This document shows positions 3 through 15,681 of a DNA stretch of 64,000 nt, piece after piece (position 1 is the stretch's first letter; each line of letters opens with the position of its first letter). The notes beneath the pieces were generated by a model. The model made no database searches. It worked only from the letters and a program-made list of their open reading frames with translations, and was not told where the DNA came from. The position numbers were made by a program, and so were the translations under genes. This DNA comes from Sulfurospirillum arcachonense DSM 9755 (GTDB lineage: Bacteria; Campylobacterota; Campylobacteria; Campylobacterales; Sulfurospirillaceae), in NCBI RefSeq assembly GCF_000597725.1, contig NZ_JFBL01000003.1, forward strand, positions 1 through 64,000. The letters run 5' to 3'.

Positions 3-881
3 TTCTTTATTGCGACATTCATGTTGGCATCGGCTGCATATGCAGCTGATAGCCAAATATGGAGCGATATGAGAATACAAAATATCCTAGGATACGGACA
101 AGAAGAGACGTTGAAATTAGGAGAGTTGTTTACACTGTTGCAAAGCACATATTTTTACAAAATATTTTTAGCGTTATTAATAGGGGTACCAGCAGTATTC
201 TTTATACATTATCTAATAATAGGACCAAAAGTTTTTTCTCATGAAGGGAAAAAGATATTTGCATTTACTGTGTTTCAAAGAATAATACATTTGATAGCAG
301 GGATAGCATTTACAATTTTGATTCCAACAGGATTAATGATAGTGTTTGGTAACTATTTAGGTGGCGGAACACTCATAGAATACGCAAGACATCTGCATGA
401 TATAGCAACAGTATTGTTCGCAATATCATTAGTACCAATGTTCTTGTTCTGGTTCATGGATATGTTACCAACAATGGATGACGTAAAATGGATGTTTATA
501 TTAGGTGGATACCTAAGTAAAGAGATTAAAGAGATACCAGCAGGAAAGTTTAATGCAGGTCAAAAGATGTGGTTCTGGATAGCGTCAGGTGGTGGACTAA
601 TAATGATTATCACAGGAGCAGCAATGTACTTCCAAGATTTCGATTTTGGAATAGCAAAAGCACTAGGATTATCTCAAATAGATTTACTTAGAGCCTCAGC
701 AATAATACATAATGTATTTGCATTTGCAGTAATGGCACTGTTCTTTACCCATGTCTATATGGCAGCAGTTGCAATTAAAGGTGCAATCCATAGTATGATT
801 ACAGGATACAAAGAACATGATGAAGTTAAATATCTTCATAGCTCTTGGTACAAACAGTTAAAAAAAGACGGAAAGGTTTAA
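3..881 (+). CDS. Formate dehydrogenase cytochrome b subunit (gamma), 5' end outside window
   Basis: Membrane cytochrome b subunit that passes electrons from formate dehydrogenase to the quinone pool. The reading frame is open back to the window edge, and the residues before the first visible ATG at 21 belong to a signal-like hydrophobic stretch ending in ASAAYAADS, so the gene starts upstream and this entry is partial. Several long hydrophobic segments carry histidines suited to haem ligation (FQRIIHLIAG, ARHLHDIA, AIIHNVFAF, FFTHVYMA). It is followed by a terminator at 894-935 and then by fdhD, which agrees with the end of an fdh operon. Family assignment is firm; the subunit symbol (fdhC, fdoI or fdnI) is not. 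Confidence 0.88.
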   Translation, partial: FFIATFMLASAAYAADSQIWSDMRIQNILGYGQEETLKLGELFTLLQSTYFYKIFLALLIGVPAVFFIHYLIIGPKVFSHEGKKIFAFTVFQRIIHLIAGIAFTILIPTGLMIVFGNYLGGGTLIEYARHLHDIATVLFAISLVPMFLFWFMDMLPTMDDVKWMFILGGYLSKEIKEIPAGKFNAGQKMWFWIASGGGLIMIITGAAMYFQDFDFGIAKALGLSQIDLLRASAIIHNVFAFAVMALFFTHVYMAAVAIKGAIHSMITGYKEHDEVKYLHSSWYKQLKKDGKV

Positions 882-893
882 TCTACTTTCTTT

Positions 894-935
894 ACATGTA
901 AGTTGTAATTAATTTATAGCTTACATGTTTTTTTT
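894..935 (+). terminator. Rho-independent terminator of the fdh operon
   Basis: A perfect 9-bp inverted repeat (ACATGTAAG at 894-902 and CTTACATGT at 920-928) encloses a 17-nt loop and runs into eight T residues (928-935). It lies 12 bases after the stop of the cytochrome b gene. The stem contains one copy of the TACATGTA palindrome that recurs throughout the window. Confidence 0.8.
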
Positions 936-944
936 ATATATTAA

Positions 945-961
945 TATGCTAGAATAGCATA
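945..961. promoter_or_regulatory. 7-bp dyad upstream of fdhD, possible operator
   Basis: TATGCTA and TAGCATA form a perfect inverted repeat around GAA, between the fdh terminator and the fdhD ribosome binding site. The half-site TATGCTA also occurs in the candidate ModE site before wtpA (2570-2576). A regulator site is plausible but unproven. Confidence 0.3.
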
Positions 962-998
962 GTATTATATGAAATAAGTATAAATAATTGGAGACAAT

Positions 999-1793
999 GT
1001 GGAGACTATTTTTGAAATAGAAGTGACGAAAATAAAAGGCAATAAAAAGGTCACTGTACAAGATACTGTGATTCGTGAAGTAAAACTTGAAATAATCGTC
1101 AATGATAAAAATGTAGGCTCTTTAATGGCAGTTTGTGTTGATTTAAAAGAGTTAGCAGTAGGTTATCTTATGAGTGAAGCTATCATAGAAAATGTAAAAG
1201 ATATATCAAAAATAGAAATAGTAGATGTAGATACTAAAACATTTCAGGTTCGCATTGATGCTAAAGTTGTTGAAGCAAATATAGAAAGATTAGATTTAGA
1301 AGGTGTTATTGTAAGTGGCTGTGGAAGAGCTGTTAGCACGCAGATATCAAAAATTGCCATTGATGCAGCTGTCATGCAAGATGATTTTAGCATAGATACC
1401 ACTTTACTTTTTGAAGAGATGGGAAAGTTTTATACACAATGCCCATTGTATGAGCAAACAGGATGTGTACATACTGCAAAACTCTATTATGATGAAAATA
1501 CTTATTTTATAGGCGAAGATATTGCTCAACATAACACTATAGATAAAGCTGTTGGAAAAGCAAGGTTGGCTGGGGTTGATGTTACAAAGTCATTTTTGAT
1601 GGTAAGTGGTCGTCTAAGTTCAGAAATGGTTGCAAAAGCTGTTATGCATCAAATACCAATACTTGCATCACGTACAGCTTCAACATGTCGGGGAGTGAAT
1701 ATAGCCGATAAATTTGGTTTGACTCTCATAGGTTTTGTAAGAGGAGATAAGATGAATATCTACCGTAATCCACAAAGGATAAATGTAAAATGA
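999..1793 (+). CDS. fdhD: FdhD, sulfur carrier protein for formate dehydrogenase
   Basis: FdhD passes sulfur from a cysteine desulfurase to the molybdenum or tungsten cofactor of formate dehydrogenase. The 264-residue length is typical. The family loop is seen as SGCGRA, with Cys108 as the likely sulfur carrier; the second cysteine of the E. coli CxxC pair is absent (C-G-R-A), as I recall for several homologues. A second conserved block reads QTGCVHTA. The start is GTG at 999 with TTGGAGA 5 bases upstream; the ATG at 997 is in another frame and stops at once. It overlaps the next gene by 4 bases (ATGA), so fdhD and the ModE-like regulator are one operon. Confidence 0.93.
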   Translation: METIFEIEVTKIKGNKKVTVQDTVIREVKLEIIVNDKNVGSLMAVCVDLKELAVGYLMSEAIIENVKDISKIEIVDVDTKTFQVRIDAKVVEANIERLDLEGVIVSGCGRAVSTQISKIAIDAAVMQDDFSIDTTLLFEEMGKFYTQCPLYEQTGCVHTAKLYYDENTYFIGEDIAQHNTIDKAVGKARLAGVDVTKSFLMVSGRLSSEMVAKAVMHQIPILASRTASTCRGVNIADKFGLTLIGFVRGDKMNIYRNPQRINVK

Positions 1794-2527
1794 TAGATTT
1801 AAAAACGTTTATACAAGAGTATCTTAATAATGAGGGTAAGCTTGATTGTAAGGATGCTTATAAAATATCAGCAAAAACGAAAACTTCTATTGGAGAAGTG
1901 GGACAATGTGCTAAAGATCTTGACATAAGAATTTCTGGGTGTGAGCTTGGGCAGTTTGGAAAGTTACGAGGAACTGGCGAGTATAACCAAGAAGCTGATG
2001 AGAAATTAAAACCGTTTGTTAATGATGAAAATAGAATTACATGTAAAGATGCACGTGCTCAAGCTGGTGGTATAGGACTAAAAAATATCAGAGGAACTCT
2101 GAAAGAAAACAATACTGATGTTACTTTTTGTGAACTGGGTTGTTTTAAAGAGAAAAAACGTTCACGTTTATATTTAAAAACAAAAACTTGGATTGAAAAT
2201 GAAAGTGGGGAACTTTTGTTTGGAAAAGGTAAAACAGAAGTTTTAGAGCATATAGAGACTGAGGGTTCAATCGCTAAAGCGGCTGAAAAACTTGGGATGA
2301 ATTATAAAAAAGCGTGGACTCACGTAAAAATCTTGCAAAAAAATCTTGATGATGTCTTAGTAGAATCACATAAAGGAGGAGGAGAGCAAGGCGGTAGCAG
2401 ATTAACACCAAAAGCTGATGAGTTTATAAAAAATTATAAAAAATTACAGCATGAGATTGAAGAGTATGCTAATGAGCGTTTTAAAGAGTTGTTTTTAAAA
2501 CCTCGTAATAAAAAAGAGTTTAAGTAA
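1790..2527 (+). CDS. ModE-like transcription regulator with a duplicated cysteine-containing N-terminal module
   Basis: Residues about 125-215 form a ModE/LysR-type winged helix (TEGSIAKAAEKLGMNYKKAW, then GGEQGGSRLT). Before it lie two copies of a roughly 50-residue unit: CKDA at 20-23 and 85-88, and CELGxF at 51-56 and 114-119. Classical E. coli ModE instead has an N-terminal winged helix followed by molybdate-binding Mop domains; no Mop domain is seen here. Its position between fdhD and a tungstate/molybdate importer supports control of metal uptake or formate dehydrogenase. What the repeats sense is unknown; the paired cysteines could bind a metal or act as a redox sensor (inference). Confidence 0.75.
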   Translation: MIDLKTFIQEYLNNEGKLDCKDAYKISAKTKTSIGEVGQCAKDLDIRISGCELGQFGKLRGTGEYNQEADEKLKPFVNDENRITCKDARAQAGGIGLKNIRGTLKENNTDVTFCELGCFKEKKRSRLYLKTKTWIENESGELLFGKGKTEVLEHIETEGSIAKAAEKLGMNYKKAWTHVKILQKNLDDVLVESHKGGGEQGGSRLTPKADEFIKNYKKLQHEIEEYANERFKELFLKPRNKKEFK

Positions 2528-2558
2528 AACATGGTGCCTAAAGGCTAAAAAGTAAGTT

Positions 2559-2585
2559 TCGCTATATTTATGCTATATAAATATG
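2559..2585. promoter_or_regulatory. Candidate ModE operator upstream of the tungstate/molybdate transporter
   Basis: CGCTATAT (2560-2567), a 6-base spacer and TATATAA (2574-2580) resemble the E. coli ModE site pattern (CGnTATAT, spacer, TATATAACG) as I remember it. The site lies about 40 bases before the wtpA start and directly after the modE-like gene. The match is by eye only. Confidence 0.45.
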
Positions 2586-2622
2586 CAAAAATTTCATATT
2601 ATTAATTCAAAAAGGAAAGAAG

Positions 2623-3573
2623 ATGAAGAAATTAGGTTTAGGTTTAAGTTTATGTTTGGTTGCAACAATGGGTTTTGCAAAAGAAAATATTGTAATTTAC
2701 CATGCAGGTAGTTTAGCAGTTCCATTTGCTGAAGTAGAAAAAGTTTTTGAAGCAAAATATCCTCAATATGATGTTTTAAGAGAAGCAAGTGGAAGTAGAG
2801 CAGCTGCAAGAAAAATTACTGATATTGGTAAACCAGCAGACGTTATGGCAAGTGCAGATTATAAAGTTATTGACAATCTTATGATCCCAAAACATGCAAA
2901 GTTTAACGCACAATTTGCAACAAATGAAATGGCTTTAGCATATACTGCAAAATCAAAATATGCAAATGAAATCAATGCAAAAAACTGGACAGAAATCTTT
3001 TTAAGAGATGGAGTAAAAGTAGGACATTCAAATCCAAATATGGATCCATGCGGATACCGTTCAATGCTTGTAACACAACTTGCAGAAGATTATTATAAAC
3101 AACCAGATTTTTTCAAAAAACTATTTGGTTATGGTGAGAGTTATACAAATGGTGAAGAAAATACTAATAAAGTTGTAGTAAGACCAAAAGAGACAGATTT
3201 ACTTGGACTTATTGAAGCTGGTATGTATGATTATCTTTATATCTATAAATCAGTTGCAGAACAACATGGTTTAAAATATATTACTTTACCAGAAGCGGTA
3301 TCTTTAAAAAGTGCTAAATTAGCTAAAGATTATAAAAAAGCTACATTTAAAATCAATGGTAAAAAACCAGGAACTTGGATTACTAAAAAAGGCGGACCTA
3401 TGGTTTATGGTATCACTGTTGCACAAAATGCAAAATCACCAGTAAACAAAGAAGGCGCTGTTAAGTTTGTAAACTTTCTTCTTTCACCTGAAGGACAAGC
3501 TATTATGATTAAAAATGGTCAAGGCGTTATTAACCCTCCAGTAATTACAGGCGATGCAAGTATATTAAAATAA
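2623..3573 (+). CDS. wtpA: Tungstate/molybdate ABC transporter substrate-binding protein (WtpA/ModA type)
   Basis: Periplasmic oxyanion-binding protein that feeds the importer encoded downstream. Residues 1-19 form a signal peptide (cleavage after MGFA). The mature start reads NIVIYHAGSL, and PNMDPCGYR lies at 138-146; both are typical of the WtpA branch rather than E. coli-type ModA. The length of 316 residues fits. AAAGGAAAGAAG is a good ribosome site ahead of the ATG. The stop at 3573 shares its last base with the ATG of the ATPase gene. Tungstate versus molybdate preference cannot be told from the sequence. Confidence 0.88.
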   Translation: MKKLGLGLSLCLVATMGFAKENIVIYHAGSLAVPFAEVEKVFEAKYPQYDVLREASGSRAAARKITDIGKPADVMASADYKVIDNLMIPKHAKFNAQFATNEMALAYTAKSKYANEINAKNWTEIFLRDGVKVGHSNPNMDPCGYRSMLVTQLAEDYYKQPDFFKKLFGYGESYTNGEENTNKVVVRPKETDLLGLIEAGMYDYLYIYKSVAEQHGLKYITLPEAVSLKSAKLAKDYKKATFKINGKKPGTWITKKGGPMVYGITVAQNAKSPVNKEGAVKFVNFLLSPEGQAIMIKNGQGVINPPVITGDASILK

Positions 3574-4553
3574 TGGAGTTATTAGAAGTCAAAAATCTCT
3601 CTTATAAATTAGGAAACTTTAAATTAGATGATATAAACTTCAATGTAAACCAAGGGGAATATTTTGTTCTCCTTGGACAAAGTGGAAGTGGTAAAACACT
3701 TCTTCTTGAGTCTATTGCTGGGTTTAATAAGGTTGAGGGAGAGATAAATTTTAGAGGCAGTGATATATCACAGTTTACACCAGAAAACAGAGATGTGGGA
3801 TTTGTCTATCAAGATTTTGCATTGTTTCCTAATCTCAATGTTAGAGATAACATTATGTTTTCTAAAAAATATAAACAAGTAGAAAATCCAGAAGAGACAC
3901 TTTTAGATATATCTGAATTTTTGGGTTTAATGCCACTGTTAGATAGACGTATAGAAAATCTTTCAGGTGGAGAAAAACAGAGAGTTGCTATCGCACGGGC
4001 TCTTTTTTCAAAGCCAAAAATTCTTTTACTTGATGAGCCTTTAAGTGCAATTGATCCAACTTTTAGAAACTCTATTATGAAGTTTTTAAAAGATATCCAT
4101 AGACGTTATAACTTAACGACTATACATGTAACGCATAACTTTAGAGAAGCAAGTTATCTAGCAGATAGAATTGCTATTGTTATGAAGGGACAGATTAAGC
4201 AAGTAGGAACAGCAAGTGATGTTCTTAACTCTCCTTCAAGTATAGAAGTGGCAAAGTTTTTAGGATTTAAAAATATTTTACCAGTGAGTATATTAAAAGA
4301 GGATAGTGAAAATCTTTTTTCAGTCGATCCAAATACTATTCAGATTTCAAAAGAACAACTTTATTGCGATTATGTTTTTAAAGGGAAACTAGAAGAGTGC
4401 ATGGGTATAATTGACCATTATAAAATATTTATTAACGTAGAAGAAGAGCAGTTTTTTGCAAAAATTCTAAAACGTGATTATATGGGTTGTTATGCAGATC
4501 GTGGAGAGAGTATATATATAGGATTTGATAAAAAGGATATTTGTTACTTATGA
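3573..4553 (+). CDS. wtpC: Tungstate/molybdate ABC transporter ATP-binding protein
   Basis: ATPase subunit of the importer. Walker A GQSGSGKT is at 35-42, the ABC signature LSGGEKQR at 130-137, Walker B ILLLDEP at 150-156, and the switch histidine follows in IHVTHNF. The last 80 or so residues look like a TOBE/Mop-type regulatory domain, where oxyanion could bind. It overlaps both neighbours by one to four bases, so translation is probably coupled. Confidence 0.9.
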   Translation: MELLEVKNLSYKLGNFKLDDINFNVNQGEYFVLLGQSGSGKTLLLESIAGFNKVEGEINFRGSDISQFTPENRDVGFVYQDFALFPNLNVRDNIMFSKKYKQVENPEETLLDISEFLGLMPLLDRRIENLSGGEKQRVAIARALFSKPKILLLDEPLSAIDPTFRNSIMKFLKDIHRRYNLTTIHVTHNFREASYLADRIAIVMKGQIKQVGTASDVLNSPSSIEVAKFLGFKNILPVSILKEDSENLFSVDPNTIQISKEQLYCDYVFKGKLEECMGIIDHYKIFINVEEEQFFAKILKRDYMGCYADRGESIYIGFDKKDICYL

Positions 4554-5317
4554 GAAATTGGTTTGTATACTTACTTGCAAGTTTGGCATGTATAATTTTA
4601 TTGTTTTTATTGATTCCCTTAGTAAAAATGATATTTGGTGGGGATTTTTCAGTAGTATGGGAAACTTTTCAACAAAAAGATGTTTTAGATTCTATTTATT
4701 TGACTATGAGAGTCTCTTTTATGGCAATGCTTTTTGTCTTATGTACAGGATTGCCTTTAGCATATCTTATTTCAAGATATGACTTTTTTGGAAAGTCACT
4801 TGTTGAAGCGCTTATTGATATTCCTACAATGATACCTCATACCGCTGCTGGTATTGCACTTTTACTAGTTTTTGGAAGAGGACCTATCGCTGAATTTTTT
4901 GTTACTTTTGGTATAAAATTTTCTGATGCAGAACCTGGGATTATGATTGCTATGATGTTTTTATCTGCAACATATTTGATAAATGGGGCAAAAGAAGGTT
5001 TTAATAAAGTTGATATAAAATTAGAAAAAGTTGCTCGAACACTTGGAGCAAATCCTCTACAAGTTTTTTTAAAAATCTCTATTCCAAATGCAAAAAAAGA
5101 CATTATCAATGGAAGTTTGATGATGTGGGGAAGAGGATTGGGAGAGTTTGGTGCGGTGGTGATTTTAGTATATCACCCTATGGTAGCACCTGTTTTGATC
5201 TATGATAGATTTACAAGTTATGGACTTGCTCATTCTGCACCAGTAGCAGCTATTATGATTATGATATCAATTATGATATTTTTAAGTGTGAGGTTTTTGA
5301 ACAACAAATTGAAGTAG
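4550..5317 (+). CDS. wtpB: Tungstate/molybdate ABC transporter permease
   Basis: Inner-membrane channel with about six hydrophobic segments. The EAA loop that contacts the ATPase appears as EKVARTLGANPLQVFLKISIPNAKK, split here by position only: it spans roughly residues 158-182 of this 255-residue protein. The ATG at 4550 overlaps the ATPase stop (ATGA) and is preferred over an in-frame TTG at 4541. The order substrate protein, ATPase, permease completes a standard oxyanion importer. Confidence 0.88.
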   Translation: MRNWFVYLLASLACIILLFLLIPLVKMIFGGDFSVVWETFQQKDVLDSIYLTMRVSFMAMLFVLCTGLPLAYLISRYDFFGKSLVEALIDIPTMIPHTAAGIALLLVFGRGPIAEFFVTFGIKFSDAEPGIMIAMMFLSATYLINGAKEGFNKVDIKLEKVARTLGANPLQVFLKISIPNAKKDIINGSLMMWGRGLGEFGAVVILVYHPMVAPVLIYDRFTSYGLAHSAPVAAIMIMISIMIFLSVRFLNNKLK

Positions 5318-5354
5318 ATATATGCAAATATCGCATAATATCAATAAAAATTGT

Positions 5355-5373
5355 TAAGTGAAAAACTCACTTA
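5355..5373 (+). terminator. Weak terminator-like hairpin after the transporter operon
   Basis: TAAGTGA (5355-5361) and TCACTTA (5367-5373) pair perfectly around AAAAC, 38 bases after the permease stop. The following bases are T-rich but not a clean T run, so termination would be partial. Confidence 0.4.
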
Positions 5374-5409
5374 TTTATGTTAAAATAATAGAAAATAATA
5401 AAGGAGGAA

Positions 5410-5595
5410 ATGATGTTTGTAAGATTAAATGATAGAGTTTATTTAAACACGGATAGAATTACGCGCATAAAGATTGATGAAGTTCAAGATGGAATTAGAA
5501 TTCGTTTTTATGAAGGTGCATTTCAAGTAGCAAAATCTCATAAGTTTGCAACAGTTGAAGATGCTGCTAAGTGGATTAGTGATAATATGAAATAA
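5410..5595 (+). CDS. Small conserved-looking protein of unknown function
   Basis: 61 residues, soluble, mixed charge, with no signal peptide or motif I recognise. A strong ribosome site (AAGGAGG, 5401-5407) precedes two consecutive ATG codons, so translation may start at 5410 or 5413. A region resembling a -10 box (TAAAAT) lies at about 5381-5386. The gene stands alone between the metal importer and yedF, with hairpins on both sides, so it may be its own transcript. The good ribosome site and regular codon use make it a likely real gene. Confidence 0.65.
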   Translation: MMFVRLNDRVYLNTDRITRIKIDEVQDGIRIRFYEGAFQVAKSHKFATVEDAAKWISDNMK

Positions 5596-5629
5596 AAAGT
5601 AGTTACTTAACTGCTTTACATGTAAAAAG

Positions 5630-5644
5630 GCCTAAGGTTTAGGC
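5630..5644 (+). terminator. Possible weak terminator after the small protein
   Basis: GCCTAA and TTAGGC pair around GGT, just after a TACATGTA palindrome (5617-5624). There is only a short T stretch a few bases later, so this is a tentative call. Confidence 0.25.
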
Positions 5645-5759
5645 AGACATTTTCTACAAAACTAGTGATAACGGTTTTACGTTAGTAAAAAGTTTCTTTG
5701 AAAACTGATTTTCTTTTGAGAAAATTATCTGTCTAAATAAAATAATAATTGGAGATAAT

Positions 5760-6350
5760 ATGAATATAGATTGCCGTGATTTGGCATGTCCAGAGCCTGT
5801 TATAAATACTAAAAAATCACTTGAATCATTGGGTGATGAAGGTATCTTAGAAGTTTTAGTAAACTCAACTGCATCAAAAGAAAATGTAATAAGATTTGCA
5901 ACAAATGAAGGTTGTAGTGTAAGTGATGAAAGTACTGAAGATGGTTCTGTAAAAATAACTATAGTTAAAGGGTTTGCTTGTGGAATTACCACCGAAGAAG
6001 AGGGTGACAAATTTCTCAATAAAGTACTTTTTCTAAAAGATGATAAAGTAGGAGACAATGAGCTTGGAAGTATGCTTGTTGTTGGGTTCTTAAAAAGTAT
6101 CTTAGAGTTACCAAAACTTCCTAAAACAATTATTTGTGTCAATAGAGGAGTCTTTTTAACTTCGGCTGCTGCTGATTCTGATATTATTAATATTTTAAAA
6201 GTTTATGAAGAAAAAGGTGTAGAAATCTACTCTTGTGGTGTATGTTTAGACTTTTATAAACGAAGTGATGAGTTAAAAGTCGGTATGGTCGGAAATGCAT
6301 ATGGAACAGTTGATATGCTTTTAAATTCGGAGGGAACTATAACTTTATAA
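5760..6350 (+). CDS. yedF: YedF, selenium-metabolism TusA/DsrE-like protein
   Basis: Two-domain protein of 196 residues. The N-terminal TusA-like domain has the CPEP motif (Cys10) of persulfide or selenide carriers; the C-terminal half resembles DsrE with cysteines in IYSCGVCLDF. YedF proteins commonly sit beside selD and are thought to help deliver selenium, though the exact reaction is not settled. The stop overlaps the selD ATG (TAATG at 6348-6352), so the two are translated together. TTGGAGA precedes the start. Confidence 0.88.
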   Translation: MNIDCRDLACPEPVINTKKSLESLGDEGILEVLVNSTASKENVIRFATNEGCSVSDESTEDGSVKITIVKGFACGITTEEEGDKFLNKVLFLKDDKVGDNELGSMLVVGFLKSILELPKLPKTIICVNRGVFLTSAAADSDIINILKVYEEKGVEIYSCGVCLDFYKRSDELKVGMVGNAYGTVDMLLNSEGTITL

Positions 6351-7381
6351 TGAATAATAGTAGTAAATTAACCAAGTATGTCAAAGCTGCTGGTTGAGCT
6401 GCCAAACTGGCTCCGGGTGAGCTTACAAAAGTGATTGGTGCTCTTACATGTAAAGACGAAAACCTACTTGTAGGAATAGAGTCAAGCGATGACGCGAGTG
6501 TTTATAAAATAGACGATACAAAAGCTTTAGTGCAAACTGTAGACTATATTACTCCTGTTGTTGATGACCCTTACATGTATGGGCAAATTGCTGCTGCAAA
6601 TTCACTAAGTGATATATTTGCTATGGGGGCTGATGTTACAACAGCACTCAATCTTGTAGGCTTTGATGGTTGCAATCATCCTAAAGAAGTTTTAGGTGAG
6701 ATTTTACAAGGTGGTCTTAGTAAGGTCAAAGAGTGCGGTGGTCTTATTGTTGGTGGACACACTATAGAAGCTCCTGAGATGACTTATGGTCTTAGTGTAA
6801 GTGGTTTAATACATCCTGATAAGATTTATAGAAACAATACTCTGCGAGTTGGAGATGTTTTAATCCTCACAAAACCTATAGGTATGGGTGTTTTAACAAC
6901 AGGCATAAAAGCAGATATGCTTAAAGAGAGTGCAGTTGAACATACAGCTTCTATCTTATCTCAACTCAATCATAAAGCATCATTGCTTATGCGTGAGTTT
7001 GATGTGAGTGCTTGTACTGATGTTACTGGTTTTGGATTGGCTGGTCATGCCTATGAGATGAGTAGCGGGGCTTTTACTCTTGAGTTTGAATTTGAAAAAA
7101 TCAATATTTTAAAAGAAGCAATAGAACTTGCGAATATGGGAATAATCCCAGCCGGAACGTATAATAATAAAGCGTATTTAGATTTACATGTAGATGTAAA
7201 AAAAGCATACAAAGATGAGATATTTTTCTATGATGCACAGACTTCTGGTGGTCTTTTGATAGCCGTTAAAGAAGAAGATGCAACTAAGCTTTTAGTCAAA
7301 CTCAAAAATGAGGGTTATGAATATAGCTCAGTTGTAGCAACTGTGAAAGAGTTTAATGGTAAGAGTCTAGTTTTAAAGTAG
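6350..7381 (+). CDS. selD: SelD, selenide water dikinase, itself a selenoprotein (in-frame TGA = Sec16)
   Basis: SelD makes selenophosphate from selenide and ATP for Sec-tRNA synthesis. The frame beginning at ATG 6350, coupled to yedF, reads through a single TGA at 6395-6397. Around it the protein is AAG-U-AAKLAPGEL, matching the SelD active-site loop where Cys or Sec lies before the catalytic Lys (GCGCK-type in E. coli). The rest is standard SelD: DDASVY, GFDG, VGGHT, DVTGFGLAGHAYEM. Total 343 residues with Sec. An ordinary gene finder would begin after the TGA (first in-frame GTG at 6431) and lose the active site. Presence of tRNA-Sec at 12308-12406 supports real decoding. Confidence 0.94.
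6398..6425 (+). promoter_or_regulatory. Candidate bacterial SECIS hairpin of selD
   Basis: Directly after the TGA, GGCTC (6409-6413) pairs with GAGCT (6419-6423; one G-U) around the loop CGGGT. The loop lies 17-21 bases after the TGA and carries GG, as expected for a SelB-binding SECIS element. The lower stem is weak, so the fold needs calculation. Confidence 0.6.
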
Positions 7382-7388
7382 ACTCTTA
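7360..7388. terminator. Bidirectional hairpin spanning the ends of selD and the MFS gene
   Basis: TAAGAGTCTA (7360-7369) and TAGACTCTTA (7379-7388) are a perfect 10-bp inverted repeat with a 9-nt loop. It covers the selD stop codon and the stop of the convergent transporter gene, which lie only 4 bases apart. T-rich sequence follows on the plus strand. Confidence 0.65.
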
Positions 7389-8534
7389 TTTAATATATTT
7401 TGTAAGTAAGAATGCCATTGGAATACATCCAACTGCTAGTACATTACAGATGATATAGGTTGTTTCAAGACCTAGATGATCTCCTAAAAGACCTACTCCA
7501 AAGACTATAGCAGAGCTTACTCCAAAGTTGATAGACATATACATACTATTCATAAAAGTAGGCATGTGAGAGTTTGTGTCCTGTACTGTTGCCATCAAAA
7601 CTGGACCTGTTGCAAAAAGGAACAAACCAATCAATGGAAGAACAAAAATACTATCAAAATAGATAAAAAGAGCCATACTTATAGCTGAACCAATACTTGC
7701 TATGGCAAGTGTGCTTTTACGACCAATCCTATCAGAAATGTTTCCAGCTACAAATGTCCCAAGAACTCCAAAAAACTGTAAAATAGACAATGAAATACCT
7801 GCATGCCAAAGAGATTCCCCTTGAGCTACTAAATAAACAGGTAGATAAAGGGTTAAGGTACTTTTCATACCTGATTGAAAGAGTAAAAAACTTCCCATAA
7901 CAATAAAAAATGGATAGTATTGTTTTAAAAGTTTTTTAGTATCACCTTTTTCTTTTGGTTTTCTAAGAGGTCTATTTGTATCAAAGTCTTTGAGTTTTAT
8001 ATAAAGAATAATAGAAGCAATAAGTCCTAAAGGCATAAGTTTATAAATACCTTCTAATCCCCACCAAGAAACACCAGCAGTTGCAATCAAAGGACCAATA
8101 GTTCTTGCTAACTCTCCTCCAACCATAAAAAAGCTCATCCCTGTTCCAACTTTTTGGCCTGAACTCTCTTTAATCATAGTAGGAGAAGGGACATGAAACA
8201 AAGCTGCACTAATCCCTGCAACAAAAAGTAAAATAAAAAGTATGACGTAAGATGAAGCAAGTCCAACTAAACTCATGCTTATTGCTGTTATAGCAGGAGT
8301 AAGGATAACAAAGTATTTAGCGCCCGTTTTTTCCGCAATAAGACCAAAAAATGGATTAAACAGAGCTGGAATACGTCTAGCAATATCTAAGAAAGCTGCC
8401 ATAAAAAGAGACATCTCAAGCTTTGCTATAAGCAAAGGTAAAAGCGGTGCTAAAAAAGATGAGTAAATATCATGAGATAAGTGGGCAAAAGAAATTGTAA
8501 AAACTTTTGCTTTTTGAAATGTTTTATTTTCCAA
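7386..8534 (-). CDS. MFS exporter related to fosmidomycin resistance protein Fsr
   Basis: Inner-membrane drug:proton antiporter family protein with about 12 hydrophobic segments over 382 residues. The opening FAHLSHDIYSSFLAPLLPLL and the later GQKVGTGMSFFMVGGEL match the Fsr branch, and a loop of MFS type reads NISDRIGRKS. The start ATG at 8534 is preceded by AGGTCC. It points toward selD and ends within 4 bases of it. The real substrate is unknown. Confidence 0.8.
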   Translation of the reverse strand: MENKTFQKAKVFTISFAHLSHDIYSSFLAPLLPLLIAKLEMSLFMAAFLDIARRIPALFNPFFGLIAEKTGAKYFVILTPAITAISMSLVGLASSYVILFILLFVAGISAALFHVPSPTMIKESSGQKVGTGMSFFMVGGELARTIGPLIATAGVSWWGLEGIYKLMPLGLIASIILYIKLKDFDTNRPLRKPKEKGDTKKLLKQYYPFFIVMGSFLLFQSGMKSTLTLYLPVYLVAQGESLWHAGISLSILQFFGVLGTFVAGNISDRIGRKSTLAIASIGSAISMALFIYFDSIFVLPLIGLFLFATGPVLMATVQDTNSHMPTFMNSMYMSINFGVSSAIVFGVGLLGDHLGLETTYIICNVLAVGCIPMAFLLTKYIK

Positions 8535-8703
8535 AGTGGACCTTTATTTTTAATACGAAATAATACAATAAATAATCTAAAATTATAGGATTTATAACTA
8601 AATATACCAAATGGTTAAGCTTGTATTTAAAAAATCAAAACTACTATTACTGTGTTTTAAAGAAAATTTTAGTATTATTAGAGCTTGTATTTTAGGAGAA
8701 TTT

Positions 8704-9168
8704 ATGGGAAATAATAAAAAAGAAAACTTTATTTTTGGATTAATCGCATGTAGTTTAATGGTTTTAGGCATGGTAACGTACAATGCAATCTTATCAAATG
8801 GTATACAATCACATTTAGTACAAGAAGTAGCTTTGATGTATGTACCAGTATTTTGTTTAGCACTATTTTATGAGTGGTTTATAGTTTCAAAAATCGCAAG
8901 AAGATTAGTATCGAAGATAGTAAGTCAAGATGACCCTCTTGTTAAAAAAATTCTTTTCATGTCTTTTTTTATGGTAACAGGCATGTGCTTTTTGATGACA
9001 CTCTCAGTAGTACTTATCAGTAAACCATATACAGATAATTTCATGGATATATTTTTAATCACTTTTGTGAAAAACTTTATTGTTGCACTGCCATTGCAAC
9101 TACTGGTTGCAGGACCTATTGCTAGATTGGTTTTTTTCAAAATTTATCCGCCAGTTGGGAATAAATAA
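8704..9168 (+). CDS. DUF2798-like small membrane protein
   Basis: 154 residues with about four membrane segments, arranged as two similar halves, as in DUF2798 proteins. The start at 8704 is chosen because TTAGGAGA lies just before it; an in-frame ATG at 8611 would add a hydrophilic leader without a ribosome site. It stands alone between the divergent MFS gene and the selC remnant region. No function is known to me. Confidence 0.65.
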   Translation: MGNNKKENFIFGLIACSLMVLGMVTYNAILSNGIQSHLVQEVALMYVPVFCLALFYEWFIVSKIARRLVSKIVSQDDPLVKKILFMSFFMVTGMCFLMTLSVVLISKPYTDNFMDIFLITFVKNFIVALPLQLLVAGPIARLVFFKIYPPVGNK

Positions 9169-9202
9169 TAAATACAAAATATGAAGGTTTTATTGAGGTT
9201 TT

Positions 9203-9255
9203 GTGAGAAGATATAGGAATCTCTTTGAAGTATATGGGATCGTACACACCTTTCA
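9203..9255 (-). repeat. Decayed third copy of the selC-derived attachment region
   Basis: Two blocks match the repeat copy at 10153 in the same order and orientation. Bases 9203-9221 match 10155-10173 at 16 of 19 positions, and 9224-9238 match 10212-10226 at 14 of 15. About 38 bases in between are missing. The second block runs past the tRNA part into sequence shared with the 10153 copy but not with intact selC, which suggests two related insertions. Confidence 0.5.
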
Positions 9256-9373
9256 TTTTTTATGTAAATGAAATACTTATATACATGTACTATTGGATTT
9301 CACCAAAAACAAGTAAGCTGATTTAAACTTTTAATGTATTTTGATATAATTAATTTTTTAAATAAGGATTTTT

Positions 9374-10015
9374 ATGATTGATTTTAATTTATATGTTGCA
9401 TTTATTTTAACAGTTATTTTTGTTATTTCTACTCCAGGTCCAGCTGTTTTATTTGTTATCGCTAGAAGTGTTAATTTAGGAGTTAGAGGAGGTATTTACT
9501 CAATGCTTGGTTTAGCATGTGGTGCTTTAGTTTATGCTGTAGCCGTAGCATTTGGTTTAGCTCAGTTGCTTGAATCATCACCTCAAGCATTTTTATTTAT
9601 AAAGAATCTAGGCTGTCTTTACTTAATCTATTTGGGTCTAAAAACCATTTTAAGTAAAGAGAACTATGAAAATACCGAAGAGGAAAAAATTGTTTCTGCT
9701 AAAAACCTTATAAAAGAAGGCTTTTTAGTAGAGTTATTTAATCCTAAAACTGCTTTATTTTTCCTTGCTTTTCTTCCTCAATTTACTAATTTTTCACTTG
9801 GCAATATGGAGGTGCAACTTATTATTCTTGGACTAACATTTGTTATAGTAGGACTCGTAACTGATAGTTTTTATGTACTGTCAGCTGGACATATAGGAAA
9901 ATTTCTTAAGCAGTCTATAACCTTTAAAAAAATTGAAAAATACTTTTCAGGAAGTATATATTGCTCTTTAGGTATTGCTGGGTTATTCCATAAAATTCAA
10001 AAAAGTCAAGTCTAA
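9374..10015 (+). CDS. LysE/RhtB family amino-acid exporter
   Basis: 213-residue inner-membrane protein with about six hydrophobic segments. The N-terminus has the family signature STPGPAVLFVIARS followed by a glycine-rich second helix, and a later NPKTALFFLAFLPQF block is also typical. A ribosome site AAGGA precedes the ATG. It lies between the decayed selC repeat (9203-9255) and the 66-bp repeat (10153-10218), so it may have arrived as cargo of an older insertion (inference). The substrate cannot be told. Confidence 0.85.
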   Translation: MIDFNLYVAFILTVIFVISTPGPAVLFVIARSVNLGVRGGIYSMLGLACGALVYAVAVAFGLAQLLESSPQAFLFIKNLGCLYLIYLGLKTILSKENYENTEEEKIVSAKNLIKEGFLVELFNPKTALFFLAFLPQFTNFSLGNMEVQLIILGLTFVIVGLVTDSFYVLSAGHIGKFLKQSITFKKIEKYFSGSIYCSLGIAGLFHKIQKSQV

Positions 10016-10504
10016 ATTGTTATAAGTAATTTTTAACTATTAGCTTGACATATAACTTTTAATAGTCTCACGTATTATAGAAATCAGTTTAAACTTTTAT
10101 TATTTTTATAGTGTTTATAAAATTTATATGAAAAGCTTTACATGTAAGAAAGTGGCGAGAAGGTGTAGGAATCGAACCTACCTTCAGACGGTCAACCGCC
10201 CAAACATCGGGTTTGAAGTATGTGGGTGATACACGCTTTTTTTTCTTCCTTAAGCTTCTTTTACTTACATGTATGTACTATGCAAAAACACCTTGACCGA
10301 TTAAAAATAAAAATTAATTTTTTACATGTAAATATTTATCACTAATATTGTTGATATCCTATCTTTTTAATACTAGGCTGTTCTCTTTAACCCACTTGAA
10401 CTGTTAAAACTATTTGTTTTATTTCTATGCTTATTGGATGTCGCTTTAAGTAAACTTATTGATTACTTTTAGTAAAATCTTTGTTACTTTAAATAGGAGC
10501 GTAT
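10016..10504. other. 489-bp gene-free stretch with the selC 3' fragment
   Basis: No reading frame here looks coding. It holds the 66-bp selC duplicate (10153-10218), three TACATGTA palindromes (10139, 10266, 10323) and AT-rich sequence. I see no other clear signal. Confidence 0.7.
10153..10218 (-). repeat. Displaced selC 3' fragment, distal attachment site of the island
   Basis: These 66 bases are identical to 12308-12373, which run from the anticodon loop (C32) to the CCA end of the selenocysteine tRNA gene. The match stops exactly at the anticodon loop, the usual crossover point for tyrosine integrases that use tRNA genes. The 5' half of the tRNA is missing here, so it is a remnant and not a second tRNA gene. 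Confidence 0.88.
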
Positions 10505-11032
10505 ATGTCTATACCTAAATCTGTTCAGAGAATCTTAATCATTTTAGGAATCATTGGCTATATTCTCTATGAGGGTATAACACTAAAAGATGGTTTTGAG
10601 TTTATGCTATCTTTAGCTGTTGGTTTACTTATACTCTTTGTATTTGAGGCTATAAATAAATACATTCATTGTAATAACTTAGTACTTTATCTACTCGCAA
10701 TCATTCCTATAGCATTTTTTTTAATAACTTTAATATCCAATAAATCTTCTTTTGGTGAGAACATAGCTCTATGGGTATCTGTACCTTTTGCTTATCTTTT
10801 ATTTTACTTGATATACAAAAAAGAATCTATTATTTCATCTTTTAGTAGAGTTATAGGATTTCTACTGATATTACTACTATGGGTGAGTTCAATAGTTTTA
10901 ACTATCCTTTGCGTAACATCATATGAATCAAATGGAATAAGTTTGATTACATTACTTTATGGGGTGGTTACTTTAAGTTATTTTTTTATAACTAATTCAA
11001 TAATGGGTATTAGGTCAAGAGAGGTTTATTAA
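10505..11032 (+). CDS. Unknown membrane protein in the selC island
   Basis: 175 residues, almost wholly hydrophobic, with five or six membrane segments and no motif I recognise. ATAGGAG lies before the ATG. The stop overlaps the next start (TAATG), so the two island genes are translated as a pair. No homology can be claimed from the sequence alone. Confidence 0.7.
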   Translation: MSIPKSVQRILIILGIIGYILYEGITLKDGFEFMLSLAVGLLILFVFEAINKYIHCNNLVLYLLAIIPIAFFLITLISNKSSFGENIALWVSVPFAYLLFYLIYKKESIISSFSRVIGFLLILLLWVSSIVLTILCVTSYESNGISLITLLYGVVTLSYFFITNSIMGIRSREVY

Positions 11033-11541
11033 TGATTGAAGGTATATTACTTTTCTCAGGTTGGGTTATAGGGTTCATATCAGTATTCTTATTCCTTCCA
11101 AAAAGAACTTGTCCTATTTGTGGCACTAAATCTATTAAAGTTGTATCCGTAATGAAGAATCTTTTTATAACTAATGAGGGAAGTAAGTGTAATGAATGTG
11201 GTTCTTTAATTCTTATTAATCAACTCTATAAACAGATTCTTAAGCATCCTATAGGATTACTAATGGGTATAATATTTTTTGTAAGTATGTATCTTTTAAT
11301 ACCCTTTAAAGAACTTATGAATGAAACTATATTAAAAGGCACACTTTCTTTAATTGCTCTTAATATGATAGTTATGGTCTTACCTCTTATTATTTCTTTA
11401 TCTATTTATGCTTATCTAATGCCAATAGTTGAAGGTACAGAAAAGGAAATAAAAAGGAAAAATAAAATAGGAATAATAGGGTACTTCATTGAGTTTGGAT
11501 TATTCTTCATTATGCTCTTAGCTCTCTTCTTGTGGATATAA
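11032..11541 (+). CDS. Unknown membrane protein with a cytoplasmic-type zinc ribbon, selC island
   Basis: 169 residues. One hydrophobic helix (about 3-22) is followed by a CPIC (27-30) and CNEC (53-56) pair that would form a zinc ribbon, then three further membrane helices. The four cysteines are the only diagnostic feature. It is coupled to the preceding membrane protein; the pair could form a complex (inference). The family is unknown to me. Confidence 0.7.
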   Translation: MIEGILLFSGWVIGFISVFLFLPKRTCPICGTKSIKVVSVMKNLFITNEGSKCNECGSLILINQLYKQILKHPIGLLMGIIFFVSMYLLIPFKELMNETILKGTLSLIALNMIVMVLPLIISLSIYAYLMPIVEGTEKEIKRKNKIGIIGYFIEFGLFFIMLLALFLWI

Positions 11542-11571
11542 AGTACTTAAAAACACATCTTTATTATTCAT

Positions 11572-11706
11572 TTATTCTTTTATATCGACTTTAAACGTGT
11601 CACCATCATAGATTGAAGTAACTTCACTTACTATTGCATTTCCATAGTTTATATTTTTACTAAATAATGATGTTAAAAGTATAAAGCATATAAATATAAT
11701 TTTCAT
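11572..11706 (-). pseudogene. Truncated thermonuclease-like (SNase) gene, signal peptide and first strands only
   Basis: A 44-residue minus-strand frame starts with a signal peptide (FICFILLTSLFS) and continues into VTSIYDGDTFKVDIKE, then stops. DGDTF is the first catalytic block of staphylococcal-nuclease-fold enzymes, whose full length is about 130 residues or more; the arginine and glutamate blocks are missing. It is therefore a gene fragment inside the island rather than an active nuclease. Confidence 0.55.
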
Positions 11707-11776
11707 TTGTACTTTTTTATTTTAATTGTTGAAAATTTTTCTTTTCATAAATAAAGTTTTATAAACTACCTAATAA

Positions 11777-12121
11777 TTATAAAAAAGTATTAAGGCAATG
11801 TGTAAACATTGTGTTTACATTTTCTTCTTCCACATCAATTAGATGAATTTCAATATCTTTATACCTAATGAATGTCGATTTTGTATTCCTATAGATGAAA
11901 TCTATTCTATGCAATTTTTCTTTTTTATAATTTTTTAAAATTACAATATCATTTTTTCTTTTTTCTAAAAAATCTTTTGTAGAATTATTTCCCTCAGAAA
12001 TATAAATTGAACCAGTTGTAGTTAAATCATCAATAGAAGGAAAAAAACGATAAGTTTTTTGGTGAAACGCTCCTATTAAGTGATACTTAGAAGGAATTAT
12101 AATTTCACACATATTTTTCAT
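11777..12121 (-). CDS. Unknown 114-residue protein of the selC island
   Basis: Soluble, lysine- and isoleucine-rich, with no signal peptide or recognised motif. It starts at ATG 12121 on the minus strand and is followed downstream by the truncated nuclease fragment. An inverted repeat TGTAAAC / GTTTACA at about 11800-11818 lies inside its 3' end. Very AT-rich codon use suits recent acquisition, but composition was judged by eye. Confidence 0.5.
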   Translation of the reverse strand: MKNMCEIIIPSKYHLIGAFHQKTYRFFPSIDDLTTTGSIYISEGNNSTKDFLEKRKNDIVILKNYKKEKLHRIDFIYRNTKSTFIRYKDIEIHLIDVEEENVNTMFTHCLNTFL

Positions 12122-12307
12122 TCTAATAGTAAAAAAATTAATATCTTATTTGACATATATATTTCCTTTCAAATTTTAGTTATTGAAAAATGAAGTTTTT
12201 AATAGCTAATTTCACCCATCGGGCTCATTTTTGGGAAAAGAGCCATAAAAAGGCACTTTACTATAATTTTAGCATATTTTAATTGAAAAAGTATTATAGG
12301 AAAAAAT

Positions 12308-12373
12308 TGGCGAGAAGGTGTAGGAATCGAACCTACCTTCAGACGGTCAACCGCCCAAACATCGGGTTTGAAG
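12308..12373 (-). repeat. Attachment-site repeat inside intact selC
   Basis: The proximal copy of the 66-bp direct repeat; see the identical copy at 10153-10218. It covers the anticodon loop through the CCA end, so integration kept the tRNA whole. Confidence 0.88.
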
Positions 12374-12406
12374 CCCGTGCTGCCCACCAGGGTCAGATAC
12401 CCCCCA
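12308..12406 (-). tRNA. selC: tRNA-Sec (anticodon TCA)
   Basis: Read on the minus strand, the gene has the TCA anticodon in the loop CTTCAAA with a CGGG/CCCG stem. It has a long variable arm (GGGCGG / CCGTCT around TTGA), a T arm GTAGG-TTCGATT-CCTAC and an encoded CCA end. The long variable arm and extended acceptor mark it as selenocysteine tRNA. The acceptor pairs GGGGGGT with ACCTTCT, with several G-U pairs and a likely U1-C72 mismatch, so the exact 5' end (12405 or 12406) is uncertain. A TATAAT box at 12427-12422 sits 16 bases upstream. It decodes the TGA of selD and presumably of formate dehydrogenase. Confidence 0.92.
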
Positions 12407-12487
12407 CTTACGAGGAGTATAATTATACATTATTATTTGTAAAAAATAGCTTACCAACTTACTTGATTGTTTAATATGCAGGAGATT

Positions 12488-13537
12488 TTATATAGATAGC
12501 TTTTCTAATTCATTTAGGATTACTTTTGCCATATTTGAAAGGTGTACTTCTTTTGACACAGCACCTAGTAAAAATGCAGCTTTAGGCATACCATAAACTA
12601 CGCAACTTTGTTGGTTTTGTCCTAGAGTTGTAGCTCCAGTTTCTTTTAACTTGAGCAAACCTCTTGCCCCATCTTCACCCATACCAGTGAGTATAACTCC
12701 TATAGCATTTTTTCCAGCAACTTTTGATACAGAGTTAAAAAGGACATTTATTGAAGGTTTATGGCCAGAGATTTTTTTCCCATCACCAGTTTGAAGATAA
12801 TATTTTTTTCCAGAACGCCTGAGTACCATATGTTTATCTCCTGGGGCAATAAAAACTTGTCCCATTTTTAAAACATCACCATTTTTTGCTTCTTTTACTT
12901 CCACTTTACAGAGTTTATCTAGTCTATCTGCAAACTGTTTTATAAATGAAGCTGGCATATGTTGGACTATAATAACACTAGGAGAATTTTTAGGAAGCTT
13001 TGTCAGGATTTCTTTTAGTGCTTCTGTTCCACCTGTTGAAGATCCTATAGCGATGAGTTTTTGTGGGCTCAATTGTGAGTTATGATATGTTAGTGTACTA
13101 TATGTTTTTGTAATTATAGGATTAATAGGCTTGGGTGGTTTTGTCTTTACAGCCATTTTTACTTTTTGTATTAGTTCATGCTTTGTTTCCCACGTATTAT
13201 CAGAGATATTTGATTGAGATTTTGTTATAAAATCAACTGCTCCAGCATCTAGAGCATCAAGAGTGGTTTTTGCTCCTGTAGTTGTTAAGGAAGAAAGCAT
13301 AATAACAGGGATAGGCATATACTTCATGATTTTTTTTAGAAAAGTAATACCGTCTATACTGGGTATATCAATATCTAAGCAGATAACATCAGGTTTGTTT
13401 TGTAGCATCTTGTTTCTTGCTACATAGGCATCAGGTGCAGTATCTACAATACTTATAAGAGGACAATTTTGTAAGATTTCACGCATAGAAGTACGTGTAG
13501 CAGAACTTTTATCTACTATAAGGACTCTTATGCCCAT
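12488..13537 (-). CDS. cheB: CheB, chemoreceptor methylesterase/deamidase
   Basis: Removes methyl groups from receptors as part of adaptation. The N-terminal receiver has its phosphoacceptor at Asp55 (CLDIDIP). The methylesterase domain shows the catalytic serine in IGSSTGGTEAL, histidine in VQHMPASF and aspartate in GMGEDGA. The length of 349 residues is standard. Last gene of the minus-strand chemosensory operon; it shares its first base with the stop of cheD. selC lies directly downstream on the same strand. Confidence 0.95.
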   Translation of the reverse strand: MGIRVLIVDKSSATRTSMREILQNCPLISIVDTAPDAYVARNKMLQNKPDVICLDIDIPSIDGITFLKKIMKYMPIPVIMLSSLTTTGAKTTLDALDAGAVDFITKSQSNISDNTWETKHELIQKVKMAVKTKPPKPINPIITKTYSTLTYHNSQLSPQKLIAIGSSTGGTEALKEILTKLPKNSPSVIIVQHMPASFIKQFADRLDKLCKVEVKEAKNGDVLKMGQVFIAPGDKHMVLRRSGKKYYLQTGDGKKISGHKPSINVLFNSVSKVAGKNAIGVILTGMGEDGARGLLKLKETGATTLGQNQQSCVVYGMPKAAFLLGAVSKEVHLSNMAKVILNELEKLSI

Positions 13538-13995
13538 TATTCTTTTCCGGTATATTTTAGTAAAATCTTTCCTGTATCGGTTCGCATTAGGATTTTTCTT
13601 CCTCTAGTTCCTCCTACATCTTGTGCGGTTATTTTTATGCCATAGTCTTTAAGTATTTCTTTTGCAATTAAAATATTTTTTCTTCCTATCATCATCTCTT
13701 CATGGCTTACTTCAATGACATTGGCACCACCAAAGATTTTAGCTTCTAGATTGTATTTTTCACAGCCGATATTTAACATATTGTCTATGAGTTTGGGTAT
13801 AGATATATTGCCATATTTTGGGCTTTGTAGTCCATTGTCATTCCAGAGTGGAACAAGATAATGGTTCATACCACCAACTTGTTCTACTTTATCAAATAAG
13901 CAAACAGAGATACAAGAACCTAAAACAGTACTTATCTCAGTAGGTTTTGCCCCTACAAATATTTCACCTACATGAATAAACTTTTTTATATACAT
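13537..13995 (-). CDS. cheD: CheD, receptor glutamine deamidase
   Basis: CheD deamidates receptor glutamines and in some bacteria also binds CheC or CheY. The catalytic set is seen as Cys28 (LGSCISVCL) and His45 (GGMNHYLVP), with the expected threonine just before. The 152-residue length is usual. It is coupled by one-base overlaps to the kinase-like gene upstream and cheB downstream. Confidence 0.93.
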   Translation of the reverse strand: MYIKKFIHVGEIFVGAKPTEISTVLGSCISVCLFDKVEQVGGMNHYLVPLWNDNGLQSPKYGNISIPKLIDNMLNIGCEKYNLEAKIFGGANVIEVSHEEMMIGRKNILIAKEILKDYGIKITAQDVGGTRGRKILMRTDTGKILLKYTGKE

Positions 13996-14888
13996 TAAAA
14001 TTCTACCATCTCATCTGAATCATTATCAAACATAAATTCATTTGAACCAAATGCAGTTGATAAGTTAAGTTCAGACTCATCTACGTAAGGAATATTGACA
14101 ATAAAGATTGTAGAGTTGTTTTTTTGTTCATTATCAATAATACCACCTAGTGCTTCACACATTCCCTTTGCAACACTGAGACCAAGACCAAGTCCTGCAG
14201 TTTCTCTTGTGAGCCCTGTTTCAAAATGTATAAATCTGTTATATATTTCTTTGCAATGTTCTTCTTTTATACCTTCTCCTGAGTCTACTACTATGAGTTT
14301 AAAACTTTTTTCTCCACACTCTAGTGTAACAGTTACTTCTTGATCTTTATACGAGTATTCACAAGCATTTGAAATAAGATTTAAAAGAATGAGATAGATT
14401 TTTTGAGAATCGCTTATAAGCTCTTTTTCACAGTTGTTGTGTAAAGTCACTGTAAGGTTTTTTTCATGAATCAGATTATCAAAATAAGCAACTACTTCAT
14501 TAAAAACCTCTTCAATTTCTATTTTACTATAGTCATTTGCTATCTCTCCAGCCTCTATTTCAGACGCTGCAAATATATTTTTTAAACTAAAATCTATAGT
14601 TAAAAGTTCTATCTTTAAAAGGTTTCCTAAAGTATTTATCTTTTTTATGTCGTTTGTTGTAGATAACATACTTGATATATTTAATAAAGATGATATAGGA
14701 TTGTTAAATTCATTTTTTACTAAAGATAAAAATTGACTTTTTACTTCTTGTGCATTTTTACTTTTTTCATTTAAATCAAGAAGTTTTTTTGTTAAAAACT
14801 CCATCTCTTCTATAGATGAGGCTTTCTCCTCAAATCTTCTTCCGATTTCTTCTAAAAGTTCATTGTCTTGTATAGTTGCAATATCCAT
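13995..14888 (-). CDS. Histidine-kinase-like protein lacking the phosphoacceptor histidine
   Basis: 297 residues: an N-terminal coiled coil (about 1-50), a dimerisation-like helix (50-110) and a complete-looking HATPase domain with N box (LISNACEYS), G1 (VVDSGEGIKEE) and G2 (GLGLGLSVAKG). In the H box the normal S-H-E-L-R-T-P reads K-N-E-F-N-N-P: Asn59 replaces the histidine. There is no membrane segment or PAS domain. It could bind ATP but not autophosphorylate in the usual way. Set between cheR and cheD, it may be a scaffold, a phosphatase or a regulator of the system (inference). Confidence 0.8.
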   Translation of the reverse strand: MDIATIQDNELLEEIGRRFEEKASSIEEMEFLTKKLLDLNEKSKNAQEVKSQFLSLVKNEFNNPISSLLNISSMLSTTNDIKKINTLGNLLKIELLTIDFSLKNIFAASEIEAGEIANDYSKIEIEEVFNEVVAYFDNLIHEKNLTVTLHNNCEKELISDSQKIYLILLNLISNACEYSYKDQEVTVTLECGEKSFKLIVVDSGEGIKEEHCKEIYNRFIHFETGLTRETAGLGLGLSVAKGMCEALGGIIDNEQKNNSTIFIVNIPYVDESELNLSTAFGSNEFMFDNDSDEMVEF

Positions 14889-14889
14889 G

Positions 14890-15681
14890 TTATACCTTTT
14901 TCTGATATATAGATGAAGTTACAATCTGTAAAGATTGTACCGGTTCTGTTATAGATTCTGATTGGCCTAGTAACAAAAGAGACTTGTTACTTAGCAAATT
15001 TTTGAGTTTGTTTATGACTTGATATTGTGTTTTTTTATCAAAATAAATCATTACGTTTCTGCAAAAAATAAGATTAAATTTGTTTTTAAAAATAGAGTAA
15101 TTTCCAGTTACCAAGTTAAAAGATTTAAAAATTATCATATCTTTTATCTCTTGTTTGATTTTGTAAGTTTCACCTGATTTAAGAAAATATTTTTGCAGAT
15201 GAGTTTTGGTTAGACCCTCTACTTCTTTTTGAGAATATTCACCTTTCATAGCTTTTTTAAGTATATCTTTTGAAAGGTCAGTTGCTAAAATTTTAATATC
15301 CCAAGCATTAAAATCTTTGAGGTTTTCTTTTAAAAATATAGCTATAGTATAAGGCTCTTGACCACTAGAACATGCTCCAGACCAAATTCTAAGTTTTTTT
15401 TCTGTACATGTAGATAAATAAGTTTTCAGATATTGCCATTGGTTTGCTTCTCTAAAAAATGAAGTAACATTGGTAGTTATTGCATCAGCTAGTAAATAGA
15501 GTTCAGATGTGTCATTTAAAAAATATTCATAGAGATCTTGATAACTACGCAGATTGAGTTTTTGCACCCATTTTCTAAGCCTTGATTGTACTAAAGTAGT
15601 TTTTCTATCACTGAGTGATATTCCAAACTCTTTATATATAAGTTGTTGAAAATTTTGAAACTCTTGTTTTTTTATTTTCAT
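14890..15681 (-). CDS. cheR: CheR, chemoreceptor methyltransferase
   Basis: Methylates receptor glutamates with S-adenosylmethionine. The SAM-binding block reads WSGACSSGQEPYTIA, followed by the LIFCRNVMIYF block typical of CheR. At 263 residues it is near the E. coli length, with no C-terminal TPR or receptor-tethering tail seen. It starts 5 bases after the cheA stop. Confidence 0.94.
   Translation of the reverse strand: MKIKKQEFQNFQQLIYKEFGISLSDRKTTLVQSRLRKWVQKLNLRSYQDLYEYFLNDTSELYLLADAITTNVTSFFREANQWQYLKTYLSTCTEKKLRIWSGACSSGQEPYTIAIFLKENLKDFNAWDIKILATDLSKDILKKAMKGEYSQKEVEGLTKTHLQKYFLKSGETYKIKQEIKDMIIFKSFNLVTGNYSIFKNKFNLIFCRNVMIYFDKKTQYQVINKLKNLLSNKSLLLLGQSESITEPVQSLQIVTSSIYQKKV

Follow-up and report, generated by a model that had tools for sequence, protein, structure and literature searches.

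The selenocysteine tRNA gene (selC) of Sulfurospirillum arcachonense DSM 9755 lies about 2.1 kb from a second copy of its own 3' half. What kind of element placed the intervening DNA at selC, and how did it arrive if it carries no integrase gene? Here we analyse this locus in the first 64,000 nucleotides of contig NZ_JFBL01000003.1 (“the window”) and compare it with related genomes of the Sulfurospirillaceae.

An intact selC and its displaced 3' half

ARAGORN and Rfam both place a tRNA-Sec gene on the minus strand at 12308/12312-12407 (RF01852, 57.3 bits). Its 3' half is present twice:

12308-12407, minus strand: selC, intact tRNA-Sec gene, presumably rebuilt by the insertion (ARAGORN, Rfam RF01852)
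12308-12373, minus strand: selC-side copy of the 66-bp repeat (selC 3' half, anticodon loop to CCA; sequence identity)
10153-10218, minus strand: displaced selC 3' half, the other copy of the 66-bp repeat (100% identical to 12308-12373)

The two copies agree at 66/66 bp, and the adjoining base is mismatched at either end. Read in the orientation of selC, the first bases of the repeat are those of the anticodon loop (CTTCAAA) and its last are the encoded CCA. A repeat of this length is far above chance expectation. In the 2.66-Mb host genome one further copy of the selC 3' half exists besides selC itself, and none more. The locus combines a repeat of the tRNA 3' part with an intact tRNA (66 bp, selC), as is typical of tRNA-targeted islands. 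Both the perfect repeat and its extent from the anticodon loop to the CCA end, as described in a first-pass annotation of this DNA, are confirmed by the identity of the copies, by ARAGORN and Rfam, and by the CTTCAAA start.

Contents of the island

Between the repeat copies lie ORFs for two membrane proteins, a nuclease fragment and an ORF on the opposite strand:

10505-11032, plus strand: 175-aa orphan membrane protein (ORF; without a match in Pfam, PHROG, NCBIfam or PADLOC, hits of 20-25 bits only in the phylum)
11032-11541, plus strand: 169-aa orphan membrane protein carrying a CxxC pair (ORF; zinc-ribbon matches below threshold only)
11572-11706, minus strand: SNase-like nuclease truncated to its N-terminal 44 aa (61% to the beginning of a 145-aa protein of genome G058)
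11777-12121, minus strand: orphan ORF, 114 aa (ORF)

The cargo is most likely a two-gene operon of orphan membrane proteins plus one further ORF. The frames of the 175-aa and 169-aa genes overlap, and the 169-aa gene is missing from the remaining 43 genomes of the family. Homologues of the 114-aa ORF are absent from 397 genomes of the phylum and from phages. Three island ORFs, compared with phages, plasmids, viral contigs and up to 397 genomes of the phylum (not every ORF with every collection), gave hits of 20-25 bits at most. The nuclease fragment abuts the end of the 169-aa gene; its 145-aa relative in G058 adjoins an S24-type repressor gene and a Mu-like phage region (both named by sequence reading). 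The G+C content of the island, 25.5% (window mean 31.2%), falls near the lower limit of the values within the window itself. Thus, the first-pass description of unknown membrane proteins and a broken nuclease holds: the former are two overlapping orphans matching no family, and the latter is a real N-terminal remnant.

Inspection of the ORFs in 10219-12307 revealed no integrase, also in line with that description. A Zot/pI-type ATPase is absent from both the island and the host genome. Replication initiator, coat and secretin genes have no match in the island, and Rep is missing genome-wide.

An occupied relative with a shared attachment arm

In Sulfurospirillum sp. BB15 (G004, a MAG of the same genus) selC is occupied by a 12-kb insert. 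Its genes encode a Mrr-like protein, a coat-like 106-aa protein, a secretin (PF00263; PHROG “protein IV of M13”), a Zot-type ATPase (PF05707), Rep (PF23343), a tyrosine integrase (PF00589, frameshifted in that assembly) and a C5 methyltransferase. The insert is a filamentous-phage (inovirus) prophage. Its displaced selC half starts at the same base of the anticodon loop as in the window and differs from its own selC copy at 1/66 positions. The resemblance extends beyond the tRNA part:

10219-10330: attachment arm common to the window and the selC inovirus of G004 (91% over about 112-113 bp to G004 C10:100-212)

Repeat and arm together reach 93% over 178 bp. Given the same anticodon-loop breakpoint and a 112-bp flank that is 91% identical, the island carries what, judged by its sequence, is the attachment arm of a G004-type inovirus. 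The attachment site of the selC inovirus is present in the window island, with core and arm both matching G004. Past the arm the similarity to the phage stops cleanly, shortly before the first phage ORF; beyond this point island and phage have no common sequence, and their right-hand ends are dissimilar. The junction pattern was found in the G004 genome only among the genome contigs and in none of the viral contigs. Rfam yielded no RNA element other than tRNA-Sec in the island or the shared end. Many weak DNA hits at 10300-10340 were dismissed as AT-rich palindromes, which are common in these genomes. The motif TATTTATCACTAATATTG, shared with G004 contig C12, could be linked to no function.

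An empty relative and the conserved flanks

In another genome of the same genus (G001) the selC 3' end lies 15 bp from the start of an MFS gene that corresponds to the left flank of the window locus:

7386-8534, minus strand: MFS transporter gene, conserved left flank, adjoining selC in G001 (synteny)
12488-13537, minus strand: cheB-type gene, conserved right flank (synteny with G004 and G010)

G004 and G010 retain the MFS gene at the left and the chemotaxis cluster at the right. Relative to the compact selC-MFS arrangement of G001, all of 8535-12307 is therefore extra. This arrangement may not be ancestral, since G005 and G010 hold about 0.45 and 2.2 kb of other genes, without repeats, between selC and the MFS gene. 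To the left of selC, window positions 21-8534 comprise a selenium/formate-dehydrogenase neighbourhood (FDH gamma-like subunit, FdhD, molybdate transport, YedF-like, SelD, MFS), the order of which is largely kept in G001 and G004.

The first-pass annotation had predicted relatives in which an uninterrupted selC is followed by the sequence now left of 10153. The empty selC was found, in G001, but its partner is the MFS gene and not the LysE-type gene left of 10153, because the sequence there is itself an older insertion layer. Likewise, a boundary at 10153 is correct for the newer insert, but foreign DNA begins further left, with an older junction at 9205-9293.

An older insertion layer

The DNA between the MFS gene and the newer insert contains:

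8611-9168, plus strand: DUF2798 protein gene, between the MFS gene and the older junction (PF11391)
9205-9293: decayed older copy of the selC-half/arm junction (alignment versus shuffles)
9374-10015, plus strand: intact LysE-type transporter gene inside the older layer (PF01810, E 1.4e-31)

The older junction is composed of a tRNA 3' remnant (GAGAAGATATAGGAATC), a 36-base alignment gap and then TTTGAAGTATATGGGATCGTACAC through to ACTTATATACATGTACTAT. Its alignment with the G004 end scores 46; 2000 dinucleotide shuffles scored 20.8 +/- 3.0 and none was as high (0/2000), while the tRNA part alone is weaker (2/1000 shuffles). The 15-mer core of the junction occurs in two places only in the 64 kb. 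Of the older copy and the newer window end, the older copy is the more similar to the G004 end. A LysE-type gene was not found beside selC in relatives, and the DUF2798 gene is missing from their selC flanks.

A decayed older insertion spans about 9205 to 10152 and bears the LysE-type gene, and the island at 10153-12307 is the newer of at least two insertions at this selC. Since each new integration moves existing elements further from the tRNA, the left copy is expected to be the older and more decayed one, which matches the observation. In G004, remnants of the right end of the phage itself lie in front of the displaced copy; this stacking is the same layering process as in the window. Decayed junction copies also occur in G004 far from selC, at C12:2412 (C12 2390-2960) and C27 3734-3792. 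After the C12 copy come about 400 bases of non-coding DNA that looks structured, and a 60-base stretch common to window positions 10331-10390. In addition, a decayed selC 3' half adjoins a 442-aa integrase gene away from selC on contig C15 (64001-84000; 10049-11467 of it), which suggests another selC-type element at an ectopic place.

Proposed origin of the island

We interpret the island as an inovirus-type insertion into selC that was reduced to accessory cargo, with the phage genes and the integrase lost (probability about 0.6). The core of attP would duplicate the selC 3' half, and a G004-type tyrosine integrase would carry out recombination between attP and selC within the anticodon loop. 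The incoming DNA would restore a full selC at 12308-12407 and displace the host's original 3' half to 10153-10218. The stretch 10153-12307 would thus have entered via the attachment module of an inovirus group that targets selC in this genus. Phage genes and integrase would subsequently have been deleted, with the cut nuclease beside the 169-aa gene as a plausible scar.

The window element probably used the same machinery as the G004 phage, as it has the same core and the same left arm. Further support comes from the truncated phage-associated nuclease and from the greater distance of the older junction from the tRNA, as expected for serial insertion. That the cut nuclease directly adjoins the 169-aa gene favours the deletion that we infer. 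Three points weigh against this origin. The displaced copy is unchanged (66/66), so any such deletion would have to be recent. Island and G004 phage have no common sequence beyond the arm and their right ends differ, so that a full phage was never demonstrated at the window locus. The compact selC locus of G001 may also not be the ancestral form. A role of the membrane operon in defence against related phages is purely speculative.

Alternatively, a small unit may have integrated with the assistance of a phage, a reading compatible with the unaltered displaced copy and with the abrupt loss of similarity past the arm. In this case the 2.1-kb unit would have integrated as it is, a passenger or satellite with a phage arm, for which a helper inovirus would supply integration (and perhaps also replication and packaging) in trans. 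We consider this possible but unlikely. The unchanged copy indicates a recent event, the phage similarity ends just before the first phage ORF, the element has no integrase of its own, and two successive small layers each consist of a phage-type left end and cargo only. Against it, inovirus satellites would be expected as a conserved unit in several genomes, but the unit and its genes occur a single time in the collections searched; replication or packaging genes are absent, the truncated gene inside suggests decay, and the host genome has no helper phage. A more specific version is doubtful: a minimal satellite of about 2 kb, belonging to selC-specific Campylobacterota inoviruses, integrated by a helper and made of arm and membrane-protein cargo only, such that the two layers would be two satellites.

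Mobilisation by a resident integrase, another way for an integrase-less element to move, is not supported. The search for a selC-type integrase elsewhere in the genome, proposed in the first-pass annotation, returned none that matches: the only tyrosine recombinases of the host are an integron integrase beside recA and an Xer-type protein. With these recombinases only, and neither Zot nor Rep in the genome, no resident mobiliser is expected. The integron integrase lies directly beside recA (TIGR02249, 415 bits; G000:C13 about 79711-80310), and several relatives have homologous ORFs of similar length.

Rather improbable, too, is a composite element, in which later rearrangement fused a phage-type left end with the right end of another selC element, such as one of the P4-type-integrase group. 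Such an origin would account for an inovirus-like left arm next to a right end unlike that phage; P4-type integrases and other islands also use selC in the family, and the gene that the nuclease fragment resembles adjoins a Mu-like phage region. However, the repeat is of the full anticodon-loop type and agrees with the inovirus breakpoint on both sides, and the right end matches no other selC element compared. Finally, a local duplication of part of selC with unrelated sequence and no integrase event, which the repeat by itself would permit, is hardly credible and was rejected: the same breakpoint and 112-bp flank bound a phage in the occupied G004, selC is empty in G001, and the 169-aa island gene occurs in no other family genome.

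Comparison with known systems

In enterobacteria, selC islands are bounded by a copy of the selC 3' part. The window resembles them in carrying foreign DNA at selC. In contrast to these large islands, however, it holds only 2.1 kb and shows an anticodon-loop breakpoint and an inovirus-type arm. selC is an established island site of E. coli, e.g. for AGI-3 of BEN2908 (cited in PMC2704930).

Closer in gene content to the G004 phage are the zot-carrying prophages of Campylobacter (CON_phi and relatives), in which filamentous-phage genes and a tyrosine integrase are inserted in tRNA genes, the 3' part of which recurs as a direct repeat; these use tRNA-Met, -Ser and -Leu sites, with repeated insertions at one tRNA (PMC5025632). 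The window differs from them by its site, selC, and by the lack of any phage gene or integrase in its element. The insertion is of a known general type. A partial survey of the literature on selC integration in Sulfurospirillum, Campylobacter or Arcobacter, or on inoviruses and Sulfurospirillum, yielded none describing such an insertion.

Small phage-dependent elements offer another comparison. RS1 retains replication and regulatory genes and relies on host Xer recombination. This satellite of the filamentous phage CTXphi is likewise small, integrase-less and related to its phage through shared ends (PMC11389934). Unlike RS1, the window element has no replication gene and is located in a tRNA gene.

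selC as an integration site in the Sulfurospirillaceae

Clear occupation of selC was found in 9/33 family genomes with readable downstream sequence (the window, G004, G022, G013, G009, G033, G024, G034 and G036). The use of selC in this phylum, for which the first-pass annotation could cite no case, is hereby documented. In G022 a 30-bp repeat bounds 8.6 kb of DNA that lacks an integrase and includes an MZA-type defence system; this island (C1:328001-348000, 6884-15610) encodes a DNA methyltransferase and homologues of MzaB, C, D and E. G013 has an integrase (413 aa) beside selC and a 24-bp partial copy on another contig. Its element is split over contigs C22 and C31, with large ATPase/kinase/DndC-like genes resembling a defence cluster. 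G009, G033, G024, G034 and G036 encode integrases of 411-419 aa directly after selC and are counted by this adjacency alone, a distal repeat not being found within the stretch examined. The six selC-adjacent integrases (including that of G013) show 51-63% identity to the first and share an Arm-DNA-bind_3 domain. Together with the occupied G004 and the empty G001, these six further family members support the initial proposal of a tyrosine-integrase insertion at selC. Other Sulfurospirillaceae carry related filamentous prophages in the vicinity of tRNA-Met/Gln, -Leu and -Ser genes.

Our results identify selC as a recurrent integration site outside enterobacteria, in the Sulfurospirillaceae, where at least two breakpoints in this tRNA are used: the anticodon loop by the inovirus type and the T-loop region by others. 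The locus in S. arcachonense preserves, in legible form, a stack of filamentous-phage insertions from which small pockets of genes remain. Should the small unit move in trans, it would represent a very small hitchhiker on phages.
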